Source of the DNA: Sphingomonas koreensis
Lineage (GTDB): Bacteria > Pseudomonadota > Alphaproteobacteria > Sphingomonadales > Sphingomonadaceae
DNA length: 64,000 nt
Assembly (NCBI GenBank): GCA_006438735.1
Contig: RCZF01000004.1
Span: 192,449 to 256,448 of the forward strand
Direction of reading: 5' to 3'
Of this stretch, positions 32,864 to 41,610 are shown piece after piece (positions within the stretch are counted from its first letter, which is position 1; the number at the start of each line of letters is the position of its first letter). A model generated the notes under the pieces. That model was not told the origin of the DNA, ran no database searches, and saw only the letters and a program-made list of their open reading frames with translations. A program made the position numbers and the translations under genes.

Positions 32864-33433
32864 ATGCAGATCTGGGCTGGCCTCGGCAATCCGGGTCCGC
32901 GTTATGCGATGAACCGGCACAATGTCGGCTTCATGGCGATCGACGCGATCGCCGAGCTTCACGGCTTCGACGCGCCGAAGAAGCGCTTTCTCGGCTGGGC
33001 GATCGAGGCGCGGCTGGGCGCCGAAAAGCTGCTGCTGCTCAAGCCCGCCACCTTCATGAACGACAGCGGCCAGGCGATCGGCGAAGCGATGCGCTTCTAC
33101 CGGCTGGAGCCTGGCGACGTCACCGTTTTCCACGACGAACTCGATCTCGACCCGTTCCGCGTCAAGGTGAAGACCGGCGGCGGCACAGCCGGGCATAACG
33201 GCCTGCGATCGACCGAGGCGCATATCGGCGCCGATTTCAGGCGCGTGCGGCTGGGCATCGGCCATCCCGGCCACAAGGAACGCGTGCACAATTACGTGCT
33301 CGGCAATTACGCCAAGGCCGAGATCGATCCGCTCGCCGACATGCTCGGCGCGGTCGCCGCCGAAGCGCCCCGGCTGGCGGCGGGCGACGATGCGCGGTTC
33401 ATGAACGACGTGGCGTTGAGGCAACAGGGCTGA
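32864..33433 (+). CDS. pth: Peptidyl-tRNA hydrolase
   Basis: A 189-residue enzyme that frees tRNA from stalled peptidyl-tRNA. It starts at ATG 32864 (MQIWAGLGNPGPRY). The catalytic His is in MNRHNVGF, with Asn in FMNDSGQAIG and FHDELDLDP, GGGTAGHNGLRS and RVRLGIGHPG following. The length is normal. The stop and the next start overlap by one base (TGATG), so it is cotranslated with the TIGR02466-type gene. Confidence 0.96.
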   Translation: MQIWAGLGNPGPRYAMNRHNVGFMAIDAIAELHGFDAPKKRFLGWAIEARLGAEKLLLLKPATFMNDSGQAIGEAMRFYRLEPGDVTVFHDELDLDPFRVKVKTGGGTAGHNGLRSTEAHIGADFRRVRLGIGHPGHKERVHNYVLGNYAKAEIDPLADMLGAVAAEAPRLAAGDDARFMNDVALRQQG

Positions 33434-34038
33434 TGCCGACCCGCCTGCTCTTTGCCACCCGCTTCTACGAAGCCGCGCTCGACGACGACGCGCTGCTTGC
33501 CGAGCTCGACGACGCCTGCCGCGACGTCGCCGATGAGGATCAGGCCGGGCAAGGCTGGTCCGAGGCGCACGGTTATGCCGGCTACACCAGTTATGCGTCG
33601 CTCAACGATCTGCCGCTACGCGATCCGCGGTTCGGCGATCTCGTCCGCCGTCTCGACAAGCATGTTGCCACTTTCGGCAAGGCGTGCGCCTTCGATCTCG
33701 GCAAGAAGCGATTGAAGCTCGACAGCTTGTGGATCAACATCCTCGAGCCCGGCGGCGCGCATTCCGGCCACATCCATCCGCACAGCGTGGTTTCGGGCAC
33801 GATCTACATCGCGGTGCCGCCGGGATCGGGGCCGCTCAAGCTCGAAGACCCGCGGCTGCCGCTGATGATGGCCGCCCCGCCCCGCCTCCCCGACACTGGC
33901 GACGATCACGCGACCTTCGTCTATGCGACGCCGCAGCCGGGCGCTATCTTCCTGTGGGAAAGCTGGCTGCGCCATGAAGTGCCCGCCAACGCTGCCGACG
34001 AAGAACGGATCAGCATCAGCTTCAATTATCGGTGGTAA
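33433..34038 (+). CDS. TIGR02466-family putative 2OG-Fe(II) oxygenase
   Basis: A 201-residue protein. The cupin-type oxygenase core is visible: LWINILEPGGAHSGHIHPHS with the metal histidines, SGTIYIAVPPGSGPLKLEDPR, a distal His in ESWLRHEVPAN, and the final RISISFNY where Arg should contact 2-oxoglutarate. This family is widespread in alphaproteobacteria and marine phages, but its substrate is not established. Its coupling to pth may be only positional. Confidence 0.82.
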   Translation: MPTRLLFATRFYEAALDDDALLAELDDACRDVADEDQAGQGWSEAHGYAGYTSYASLNDLPLRDPRFGDLVRRLDKHVATFGKACAFDLGKKRLKLDSLWINILEPGGAHSGHIHPHSVVSGTIYIAVPPGSGPLKLEDPRLPLMMAAPPRLPDTGDDHATFVYATPQPGAIFLWESWLRHEVPANAADEERISISFNYRW

Positions 34039-34075
34039 GCATTAACCACGATAACATTTGTCTTCGAGGAATTTG

Positions 34076-34100
34076 GGAACATCGATCAGCTTTCGGCGTT
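34076..34100 (+). promoter_or_regulatory. EcfG-type general stress promoter
   Basis: GGAAC at 34076-34080, then 16 bases, then CGTT at 34097-34100. This exactly matches the alphaproteobacterial general-stress sigma factor consensus, GGAAC-N16/17-CGTT. The next start codon (34185) is 85 bases downstream and oriented correctly. Confidence 0.72.
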
Positions 34101-34184
34101 TGATCAGGTTACCGTCGTTGACGCGTTTTCCAGGCTCCCGACGGGGCGAGTAGCTGTCACGCTCCCGCCTGTCGGAGAAGGCAA

Positions 34185-34463
34185 ATGCCGCACTTCCACT
34201 TGCATCTTATCGAGCGATCGGGCGTCTATCACGACAGTGAGGGATGCGAACTGGCCGATGACGACGCCGCCGTGCTCAGCGCCATCCGGCAGGTGCGTGC
34301 GCTCGTTTCGCACGAATTGCGCGAAACCGGCGGGATCGCGCTGGACCGAGCGATCGACATCGTCGCTTCGGATGGCCGTCGGGTGCGACGGCTGGCGTTT
34401 CCCGACGCGGTTTTCATCACTCCTGAGCGAAAAACGGATCCGGCGCTAACATATGTTAGCTAA
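34185..34463 (+). CDS. DUF6894-like small protein
   Basis: A 92-residue protein beginning MPHFHLHLIERSGVYHDSEGCELADDDAAVLSAI (quoted in part). The pattern of an aromatic/His-rich strand, then D-x-E-G-x-E-L and an Ala-rich helix is typical of a small family common in rhizobia and sphingomonads, often with many copies per genome. No biochemical function is known. GGAGAAGG precedes the ATG. An EcfG-type promoter at 34076-34100 suggests control by the general stress response. Confidence 0.75.
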   Translation: MPHFHLHLIERSGVYHDSEGCELADDDAAVLSAIRQVRALVSHELRETGGIALDRAIDIVASDGRRVRRLAFPDAVFITPERKTDPALTYVS

Positions 34464-34585
34464 CGGCAATGATGCGCAAATCAAAGACCGAGCGGATGCC
34501 GTCGATTAAGGTCATCACGCTACCGGAATTGTCCGGCTCCTCTTAAGCAGGAGCCAGCCGCCTCTTCCGCTATGGAAGGAAGAGC

Positions 34586-35347
34586 ATGGCTGACAAACCA
34601 ACGGCGCAATGGCTCGGCGAGCGTCTCGCCGATCGTCGCGACCTCACCGCTGCGGCGCGCGATGCGATCGCCGCACTGCCGTTTTCGGTTCGCAGCTTTG
34701 AGCCTGGGCAATATTTGCTGCGCGAGGGAGATCGACCTCGCGTCTGCTCATTCCTGATCGACGGCGTGCTCTATCGTCACAAGATTGTCGGCAATGGCGG
34801 GCGGCAGATCGTCTCTATTCATATCGCGCGCGACTTTGTCGATGGTCAGAATATCCTGCTGACCGAGGCCGATCACAACATCCAAGCGCTGACCGAGGCG
34901 ACCATCCTCGCGGTCGATTCCGAGGCGCTGCTGGCGGTCGCGCTGGAGCATCCGCCGATTGCCAAGGCGTTGTGGCACGAATCGCTCGTCGAGGCGTCGA
35001 TCGTGCGCGAATGGGTCGCCAATATCGGCCGGCGCGACGCGCGCGCCCGCACCGCGCATATGCTGTGCGAGCTTGCCGTGCGGCGCGAGGCGGCCGGGCT
35101 TGGCTCGCGTGAAAGCTATGAGCTGCCGATGACGCAGGAGCAGCTCGGCGACGCGCTGGGGCTGACATCGGTACACGTCAATCGCACGCTAAAGGCGTTG
35201 CAGGCGGAAGGCGCGATCCGCCGCAACAAGCGGTCGGTCGGCATCGCCGATTGGCGCACGCTTCAGCAGATCGGCGACTTTACCTCCAATTATCTGCATC
35301 TGCGCGAAAGCGGGATCGACTTCGCCCACGTCCTGCTGAACAGCTGA
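34586..35347 (+). CDS. Crp/Fnr-family transcriptional regulator, first copy
   Basis: A 253-residue regulator. The cyclic-nucleotide-binding-like beta-roll (about 30-150) contains SFEPGQYLLREGDRPR and GRQIVSIHIARDFVDGQN. The winged HTH (about 180-235) has PMTQEQLGDALGLTSVHVNRTLK as recognition region (quoted over its key part). The N-terminal Cys cluster of true Fnr is missing, so it should not bind an oxygen-labile iron-sulfur cluster. AAGGAAG precedes the ATG. A hairpin, GGCTCCT-(7 bases)-AGGAGCC at 34535-34555, lies just upstream. The next gene is a close paralogue. Confidence 0.9.
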   Translation: MADKPTAQWLGERLADRRDLTAAARDAIAALPFSVRSFEPGQYLLREGDRPRVCSFLIDGVLYRHKIVGNGGRQIVSIHIARDFVDGQNILLTEADHNIQALTEATILAVDSEALLAVALEHPPIAKALWHESLVEASIVREWVANIGRRDARARTAHMLCELAVRREAAGLGSRESYELPMTQEQLGDALGLTSVHVNRTLKALQAEGAIRRNKRSVGIADWRTLQQIGDFTSNYLHLRESGIDFAHVLLNS

Positions 35348-35471
35348 GGCGGATGCGAGATTTCCTCCGCCGGGCGCGGCATGCTAAGGATGATCGCGGC
35401 AGTTTCGGGGGGGTGGAGCATGGCGTTTTTACAGAGGATCGCGTCGTTGCAAAACGAGAGGAATCGTCTGG

Positions 35472-36254
35472 GTGCTTGATCCCGGCGACAGCCCGATGGG
35501 TGTCATCGCGCGTCGTCTCGATGCACGAATCGCGCTGGAGGACGAAGCGGTGCGCGCGATCGTCGCGTTGCCGCACACCATCCGCCGGCTGCGGCCCAAC
35601 GAATATTTCCTGCGCGAAGGCGAACAGCCGACCAATTCGACGATCGTCGTCGATGGCTATATCTATCGCCACAAGCTGGTCCAGGACGGCGGCCGCCAGA
35701 TCGTCGCGGTGCATATTCCCGGCGATTTCGTCGATCTGCAGAACATCCTGCTCGACGAATCCGATCACAATATCCAGGCGCTGACAACGGCGACGGTCGC
35801 CGAATTTCCCCATGCCGAAATGCTCGCCCTGGCGTTTCGCCATCCCAATATCGGCAAGGCGCTGTGGCGCGAGTCGCTCGTCGAGGCATCGCTGTTCCGC
35901 GAATGGATTGCCAATATCGGCCGGCGCGATGCCCGAGCGCGGGTGGCGCATCTGCTGTGCGAGATGGCGGTGCGGCGCGAGGCCGCGGGGCTGGGGTCGC
36001 GCGCGCATTTCGAATTGCCGATGACGCAGGAGCAACTGGGCGACGCGCTCGCGCTCACCGCGGTCCACGTCAACCGCACGCTACGCGTGCTCGAAGCCGA
36101 CGGGCTGATCGAACGATCGAAGCGCGCCGTGACGGTGGCCGATTGGTCGCGGCTGCGCGCGGTCGCCGATTTCAACGAGAATTATCTCCACGTCCGCGAG
36201 ATGGCGGAGCCGGAGGAGCTGCGTGACATGGCGCGCGCCGCGGCGCGGCGCTGA
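35472..36254 (+). CDS. Crp/Fnr-family transcriptional regulator, second copy
   Basis: A 260-residue paralogue of the preceding regulator starting at GTG 35472 (ATG 35496 would shorten it by eight residues). The beta-roll has RLRPNEYFLREGEQPTN and GRQIVAVHIPGDFVDLQNIL, and the HTH has MTQEQLGDALALTAVHVNRT. Between the copies the stretch from the dimer helix to the HTH is close to three-quarters identical (shared NIGRRDARAR and VRREAAGLGSR). It lacks Fnr cysteines. The 124 bases between the two genes hold no gene I can see. Confidence 0.9.
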   Translation: MLDPGDSPMGVIARRLDARIALEDEAVRAIVALPHTIRRLRPNEYFLREGEQPTNSTIVVDGYIYRHKLVQDGGRQIVAVHIPGDFVDLQNILLDESDHNIQALTTATVAEFPHAEMLALAFRHPNIGKALWRESLVEASLFREWIANIGRRDARARVAHLLCEMAVRREAAGLGSRAHFELPMTQEQLGDALALTAVHVNRTLRVLEADGLIERSKRAVTVADWSRLRAVADFNENYLHVREMAEPEELRDMARAAARR

Positions 36255-36354
36255 GGGCCGCGGTCTGGCGGCTGGCGTCGCGCCGCGGTTGGCTGTATCG
36301 AGCGGCGGTCTCGCCGGCTTACCGGCGCTCCATCTCGCAAGGTAGCATTTCTTC

Positions 36355-37455
36355 ATGGGCTTTCGCTGTGGCATCGTCGGCCTGCCGAACGTCGGCAAAT
36401 CGACGCTTTTCAACGCGCTGACGCAAACCGCCGCGGCGCAGGCGGCGAACTATCCGTTCTGCACGATCGAACCCAATGTCGGCAATGTCGCGGTGCCCGA
36501 TCCGCGGCTCGATGCGCTCGCCGGGATCGCGCATTCGGCGAAGATCATCGAAACGCAATTGGGCTTCGTCGACATCGCCGGGCTGGTGCGCGGCGCCAGC
36601 AAGGGCGAAGGATTGGGCAATCAGTTCCTCGGCAACATCCGCGAGGTCGACGCGATCGTCCATGTGCTGCGCTGCTTCGAGGATGGCGACGTGACGCATG
36701 TCGAGGGCAAGGTCGATCCGATCGCCGACGCCGAGACGGTCGAGACCGAGCTGATGCTCGCCGATCTCGAAAGCCTCGAAAAGCGCGTGCCCAATTTCGC
36801 CAAGAAGGCCGCGCAGGGCGACAAGGAAGCCAAGATCGCCGCCAGCGTGCTCGGCCAGGCGCTCGACCTGCTGCGCGAGGGCAAGCCGGCGCGGTTGACC
36901 GAGCCGAAGGACGAGGAAGAGGCCCGCGTGTTCGCGCAGGCGCAATTGCTCACCGCAAAGCCCGTGCTCTACGTCTGCAATGTCGATGAGGGCGACGCCG
37001 CGAACGGCAATGCGCTGTCGGCGCGGGTGTTCGCCAAGGCGGCGGCCGAGGGTGCCGAAGCGGTGGTCGTCTCGGCCGCGATCGAGGCGGAGATCGCGAC
37101 GATGGCGCCGGCCGATCGCTCGGAATTCCTCGCCGACCTGGGCCTCGACGAAACCGGCCTCGCGCGCGTGATCCGCGCCGGCTACAAATTGCTCCATCTG
37201 CTGACGTTCTTCACCGTCGGCCCCAAGGAAGCGCGCGCCTGGACGGTCGAGGCGGGCGCCAAGGCCCCGCAGGCGGCGGGCGCGATCCACACCGATTTCG
37301 AACGCGGCTTCATCCGCGCCGAAACGATCGCCTATGACGATTATATCGCGCTGGGCGGCGAAAGCGGCGCGCGCGACGCCGGCAAGCTGCGCCAGGAAGG
37401 CAAGGAGTATGTCGTCCATGACGGCGACGTGATGCTGTTCCGCTTCAACGTGTGA
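36355..37455 (+). CDS. ychF: Ribosome-associated OBG-family ATPase YchF
   Basis: A 366-residue P-loop protein that binds ATP rather than GTP. G1 is GLPNVGKSTLFNAL at about residues 8-21, G3 is DIAGLVRGASKGEGLGNQFL, and the G4 position reads YVCNVDE in place of NKxD, which explains its ATP preference. A coiled-coil follows G3, and a TGS domain closes the protein (about 280-363, FFTVGPKEARAW to VHDGDVMLFRFNV). It is a conserved, redox-responsive, ribosome-associated factor. Confidence 0.96.
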   Translation: MGFRCGIVGLPNVGKSTLFNALTQTAAAQAANYPFCTIEPNVGNVAVPDPRLDALAGIAHSAKIIETQLGFVDIAGLVRGASKGEGLGNQFLGNIREVDAIVHVLRCFEDGDVTHVEGKVDPIADAETVETELMLADLESLEKRVPNFAKKAAQGDKEAKIAASVLGQALDLLREGKPARLTEPKDEEEARVFAQAQLLTAKPVLYVCNVDEGDAANGNALSARVFAKAAAEGAEAVVVSAAIEAEIATMAPADRSEFLADLGLDETGLARVIRAGYKLLHLLTFFTVGPKEARAWTVEAGAKAPQAAGAIHTDFERGFIRAETIAYDDYIALGGESGARDAGKLRQEGKEYVVHDGDVMLFRFNV

Positions 37456-41584: not shown

Positions 41585-41610
41585 AACGCGCGCATCGGTC
41601 GCGCGGTTCC
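41585..41610 (-). promoter_or_regulatory. EcfG-type general stress promoter
   Basis: On the minus strand GGAAC (41610-41606), then 17 bases, then CGTT (41588-41585), an exact match to GGAAC-N16/17-CGTT. The next minus-strand start is at 41493, giving a leader of about 80 bases. Confidence 0.7.

Follow-up and report, generated by a model that had tools for sequence, protein, structure and literature searches.

Does the exact GGAAC-N16-CGTT sequence ahead of a small DUF6894 gene in Sphingomonas koreensis act as a promoter for the general stress sigma factor EcfG and, if it does, what might this tell us about a protein family whose function is not named? The window analysed is a 64,000-nucleotide stretch of contig RCZF01000004.1, and its relevant features are collected in Table 1. 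An earlier note on this DNA had described GGAAC, 16 bases and CGTT facing toward a small gene 85 bases downstream, and the position, strand and spacer were all reproduced: CGTT ends in a T that stands 85 bases ahead of the A of the ATG, leaving 84 bases between them, in a gap of 146 bases that runs from the oxygenase stop at 34038 to the ATG. The gene, which had been called DUF6894-like, is a true family member as judged by its PF21834 score. The site is intergenic and on the same strand as the gene. It is borderline on distance, its first base lying 109 bases from the ATG, compared with 44–72 for the −35 elements of related genes in another genus, g27, and 51–65 on plasmids (see below). From the sequence, a transcript start would be expected near 34107–34109.

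Table 1. Features of the window around the EcfG-type site
Feature	Position	Strand	Evidence
2OG-Fe(II) oxygenase gene, TIGR02466 (upstream neighbour)	33433–34038	+	PF13759 115.5 bits; TIGR02466 224.9 bits, cut-off 62.5
EcfG-type site GGAACATCGATCAGCTTTCGGCGTT (GGAAC-N16-CGTT)	34076–34100	+	Motif match, intergenic
−35 element GGAAC	34076–34080	+	Agrees with the −35 element of EcfG-dependent promoters
−10 element CGTT after a 16-base spacer	34097–34100	+	Agrees with EcfG-dependent promoters (spacer 16–17, CGTT)
GGAGAAGG, likely ribosome-binding site of DUF6894 gene	34174–34181	+	Sequence
DUF6894 gene, 92 aa	34185–34463	+	PF21834 40 bits, cut-off 24.1, profile positions 1–68 of 69
Palindrome GCTAACATATGTTAGC of 16 bases, perfect, with core AACATATGTT; upstream of Crp1, candidate operator	34445–34460		Putative function
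Hairpin-forming leader of Crp1; its last hairpin pairs with the ribosome-binding site	34515–34600	+	Fold z-score −2.55
Crp1, Crp/Fnr-family regulator	34586–35347	+	HTH_Crp_2 (PF13545) 61.5 bits; cNMP_binding (PF00027) 41.4 bits
Crp2, tandem paralogue of Crp1	35472–36254	+	64% identity over 211 residues
ychF	36355–37455	+	Directly 3′ of the 2OG gene in L134 and L137 among 29 relatives' 2OG loci

The bare match is unremarkable, because with spacers of 15–18 bases the window contains two matches against 1.41 expected. A second exact match, GGAAC-N17-CGTT, lies at 41585–41610 on the reverse strand. Genome-wide enrichment of the motif was not found; with a spacer of 16–17 bases, there are 36 exact matches (14 forward and 22 reverse) in the whole genome, compared with 75 for the reversed control pattern. 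At the genome rate, the chance of a right-strand match in the 146-base gap is about 7e-4, which is small for one gene and not small across all the genes of a genome. By a crude codon-composition test, 19 of the 30 sites fetched from among the 36 are outside open reading frames, and six of ten open reading frames scanned downstream of genome sites have Pfam matches, including Ferritin_2, DUF3072, DUF2171 and DUF6582. Neither of the genome's two further DUF6894 genes has the site, and a crude scan of 33900–36500 found no sigma-70-like promoter.

The machinery to use such a site is encoded in the same genome. The identification of the motif as the consensus of the PhyR–NepR–EcfG regulon stands in print: GGAAC-N16-CGTT and its general stress role are described in PMC3892343, and the Sphingomonas melonis motif is given as GGAAC-N17-20-GTT, enriched within 100 bp of starts, in PMC6599016, where some 40% of the EcfG-dependent genes of that species are without an assigned function. 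Genes for NepR, PhyR and an ECF sigma factor are mutually adjacent in the window genome. PhyR scores 379.5 bits with NF006623 (cut-off 240), and the EcfG-like sigma factor scores 61.7 bits with TIGR02937 (cut-off 42.9) and is 41% identical to a Rhizobium etli ECF sigma factor; none of the EcfG-specific models in the profile libraries searched gave a score above its cut-off for this protein. Upstream of the genome's own nepR is GGAACCAACGAGACCATCTTTGGTT (GGAAC-N16-GGTT), which resembles the site printed for gene 1444 of S. melonis Fr1 (PMC6599016). NepR was detected in 24 of the 25 genomes asked, and in the sole NepR-less genome, G603, the DUF6894 gene (L289) is without the site. The DUF6894 gene on p42f of R. 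etli CFN42 also lacks a site; some 9 kb away from it is an ECF sigma factor gene 41% identical to the EcfG of the window genome, which from its position would be EcfG2/PF00052.

In relatives, the cassette was not seen at most of the corresponding 2OG loci. The 2OG-Fe(II) oxygenase gene is present in 239 of 250 genomes of the genus and, in a tblastn search with the window protein, DUF6894 was found behind it in the window only among the best 30 of the 239 loci. Relatives of Crp1 adjoin the oxygenase gene at 12 loci, with DUF6894 lying between the two only in the window, G107 and G077. Eight of the 12 loci are without a site. The exact site precedes the DUF6894–Crp unit in the window and in G107; it also stands before Crp alone in G244, at 82 bp, and G242 has a GGTT version in that position, at 41 bp. 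Thus, of the two syntenic DUF6894 orthologues, G107 retains the exact site, spacer length included, and G077 is without it. The leaders of the window and G107 align with a score of 81.5 (highest score among 300 shuffles, 55.5), and because they align so far above the shuffles the G107 site is partly a matter of inheritance; with the leaders alike throughout, it may be plain inheritance. Two tandem DUF6894 genes are found ahead of Crp1 in G107 (L140) and G077 (L139), the first seemingly of another subfamily. The genus has one more exact case, G135 (L087); its neighbourhood is different, with no oxygenase gene, and the order is still site, DUF6894, Crp. At all three exact genus sites (L078, L079 and L087), the gene that follows is DUF6894, and a Crp/Fnr gene lies downstream of it on the same strand.

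We then asked how often DUF6894 genes are preceded by the pattern GGAAC-N16-17-[CGT]GTT, within 150 bp in the genus and within 100 bp in g27, an alphaproteobacterial genus of another family, and in a plasmid set mostly from Rhizobiaceae. Expected counts were taken from the density of the motif elsewhere in the same loci. The site precedes 4 of 79 genes in the genus (three exact; 0.46 expected), 16 of 51 in g27 (11 exact; 0.38 expected) and 9 of 30 on plasmids (0.33 expected), the two exact plasmid cases being pAt of Agrobacterium fabrum C58 and Rhizobium sp. T1473. A further g27 gene, L297, carries the site but fell under the E-value limit and is outside the 16 of 51. Controls gave 1 (opposite strand), 0 (reversed), 0 (permuted) and a shuffle mean of 0.14 in g27, and 1 (opposite strand), 0 (reversed) and 0.05 (shuffle) on plasmids. 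The Poisson tails, 6e-21 for g27, 1e-10 for the plasmids and 1e-3 for the genus, exaggerate the evidence, since homologues cannot be counted as independent. Sites were found at 1 of 53 loci fetched through Crp1, at none of 14 in the remaining sample of the class ('class-other') and at neither of two from the same family. When the 29 labelled rows are mapped onto a tree of 221 short proteins, 15 changes are required (mean of shuffles 27.5; 0 of 500 shuffles as low), and only four of these are forced by starred branches. The trait is clustered on the tree, and the number of separate origins is unsure.

The clue to the family that the earlier note saw in the site is borne out by the g27 and plasmid counts, but it is narrower than was supposed, as the two genome paralogues lack the site. 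EcfG control of the family as a whole was rejected, there being no site before 75 of the 79 genus genes and all 14 class-other genes. Three plasmid loci, L342–L344, are near-misses, with GGAAA for GGAAC followed by AGTT or GGTT at the usual distance, at −51/−52; they were left uncounted. The EcfG-preceded DUF6894 proteins of g27 (L249–L306) seem to divide into two types, and one of these has a conserved tail resembling RSYSDDVTQSAP.

The neighbours of DUF6894 genes show an association absent from the earlier note. Of the 44 genus DUF6894 genes with enough flank, 33 have a Crp-family gene no more than 1000 bp away, with all four orientations represented. This total is made up of three loci fetched via Crp1, 22 of 30 found by likeness to the window protein, 6 of 8 found by Pfam only and 2 of 3 from the window's own genome; the 53 genes fetched through Crp1 (the named-Crp set) were left out of the adjacency counts. 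Control loci gave 0 of 57, a set without L108 (the window) and L109, the latter holding a Crp gene, or 1 of 58 once L109 is counted. Adjacency is rarer elsewhere, at 4 of 46 in g27 and 4 of 14 in class-other. On plasmids, 12 of 28 loci have a Crp/Fnr neighbour, ten by annotation (L346, L349, L355, L357, L358, L359, L361, L365, L366 and L367) and two by HMM (L348 and L352); the six annotated neighbours that were checked all have HTH_Crp_2. Several plasmid DUF6894 loci (L342–L345, L358, L363, L364 and L369) are set amid katE, PRC-barrel, DUF3597, DUF2934, DUF1206 and CsbD genes. Neighbours such as katE, DUF2934, DUF1206 and CsbD make a typical stress neighbourhood, and DUF3597 and PRC-barrel appear in the S. 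melonis EcfG table (PMC6599016).

Crp1 is a Crp/Fnr-family protein, with its cNMP-binding domain and Crp-type HTH both above cut-off. Oxygen sensors of the FNR type have an N-terminal cysteine cluster for an iron–sulphur centre; neither Crp1, with cysteines only at 54 and 161, nor Crp2, with one at 163, has such a cluster. The core of the palindrome upstream of Crp1 is aligned at the same place in seven species. As AACAWATGTT, it occurs once in the window (0.02 expected), and AACANNTGTT precedes 13 of 150 Crp genes compared with a fraction of 0.0058 of random windows. The palindrome is a candidate autoregulatory operator of Crp1. The Crp1 leader, also aligned in seven species, has a fold matched by 2 of 200 shuffles; no significant fold was found in the DUF6894 leader (z 0.02), and no RNA family in Rfam matched 33900–35500 up to an E-value of 5. 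Palindrome and hairpin over the ribosome site together suggest that Crp1 probably has its own control.

The AlphaFold2 model of the DUF6894 protein is a β-β-α-β-β arrangement with a mean pLDDT of 91.7, and the conserved Asp17 and Gly20 are in keeping with PF21834. A search of the PDB with the model gave no structural relative at an E-value of 0.001 or better; the best VIA-align match, to AcrIF9 (Z 7.2 over 61 residues, 2.6 Å), scores no higher than common arrangements usually do, and the best E-value of the sequence profile against the PDB was 0.36. The predicted fold and the absence of an informative PDB match fit a small binding protein, which we consider more likely than an enzyme. In the literature library searched, no paper on DUF6894 or PF21834 was found.

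Overall, we read 34076–34100 as the EcfG promoter of the DUF6894 gene in a DUF6894–Crp cassette, so that the known EcfG regulon would gain a member, and we put the probability of this at about three in four. The membership of the general stress response that had been claimed for the gene is likely in view of the exact consensus, the encoded PhyR, NepR and EcfG-like proteins and the site kept in G107; the G077 orthologue weighs on the other side. Under stress, phosphorylated PhyR would remove NepR from EcfG, as in the pathway established elsewhere, EcfG–RNA polymerase would start near 34107 and DUF6894 protein would be made. Read-through could put the Crp1 gene under the general stress response too; co-transcription is not certain, because Crp1 probably has an autoregulated promoter of its own at the palindrome. 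Repeated adjacency suggests that the DUF6894 product probably acts with Crp/Fnr-family regulators. We offer more tentatively, as less likely than not, the wider proposal that DUF6894 proteins are small partners of these regulators in Alphaproteobacteria and that in some lineages the two form a stress-induced pair, with EcfG making the partner, and perhaps the regulator, and thus relaying the stress signal to a second regulatory layer.

It is unlikely that the site fell in the gap by coincidence and that the DUF6894 gene is transcribed from a different promoter, possibly one to which Crp1 binds. The genome-wide excess of the reversed pattern and the siteless paralogues and G077 orthologue would be in keeping with this, but the low rate per gap, the retention of the exact site in G107, the sites far above expectation in g27 and on plasmids and the crude scan for sigma-70-like promoters all argue against it. 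We are doubtful, too, that the promoter serves Crp1, with DUF6894 carried along as a passenger, the first gene of a stress-induced operon for the regulator. None of the 16 EcfG-preceded g27 genes has a Crp gene in its fetched stretch (that of L272 ends at the gene), and Crp1 seems to own a palindrome and a leader; on the other hand, EcfG-like sites stand directly before Crp1-clade genes in G244 and G242, where DUF6894 is absent, and gene #0072 of S. melonis Fr1, a member of the Crp family, is EcfG-dependent (log2 −3.5) and has its site 10 bases from the start (PMC6599016, Table 1). The identical 26-base #0072 site occurs in G122, G170 and G207, each time before a Crp-family gene 33–39% identical to Crp1 or Crp2, and DUF6894 was not found in those 3-kb loci. 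Somewhat easier to entertain, if still short of an even chance, is that DUF6894 proteins, as general stress proteins, have their own separate task, and that their Crp adjacency reflects mobile regulatory cassettes and not shared function. The stand-alone EcfG-preceded genes of g27, the plasmid neighbours from katE to CsbD and the failure to find the cassette at most relatives' 2OG loci agree with this; adjacency in all four orientations and in several genera does not. In our preferred reading, the EcfG sites and Crp/Fnr neighbours give DUF6894 a first testable role, and both parts of the window arrangement, the stress-sigma site before DUF6894 and the Crp-type gene after it, recur in relatives from other bacteria.

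Set beside PF21834 proteins at large, for which no function is named, the window protein has a C-terminal tail longer than most. In the texts consulted on the EcfG (ECF15) regulon, a DUF6894 gene is not mentioned by name. Compared with that regulon in S. melonis Fr1 and R. etli CFN42, the window site stands at a greater distance from its start codon than is usual among relatives; it is alike in its −35 GGAAC, spacer of 16 and −10 CGTT, and PhyR, NepR and EcfG-like genes are present in the window genome as well. The #0072 locus likewise has an EcfG site ahead of a Crp-family regulator gene; it differs in that the regulator is of another Crp subfamily, its 33–39% identity excluding it as an orthologue of Crp1, and that no DUF6894 gene lies between site and regulator. 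The closest parallel from the plasmids is pR132502 of Rhizobium leguminosarum bv. trifolii WSM1325 (L361). Its −10 element is GGTT, its other neighbours are different and its Crp protein, which has HTH_Crp_2, gave no match to the sphingomonad Crp profile; nevertheless, as in the window, an EcfG-like site, DUF6894 and, 110 bases beyond it, a Crp/Fnr gene follow one another on one strand.
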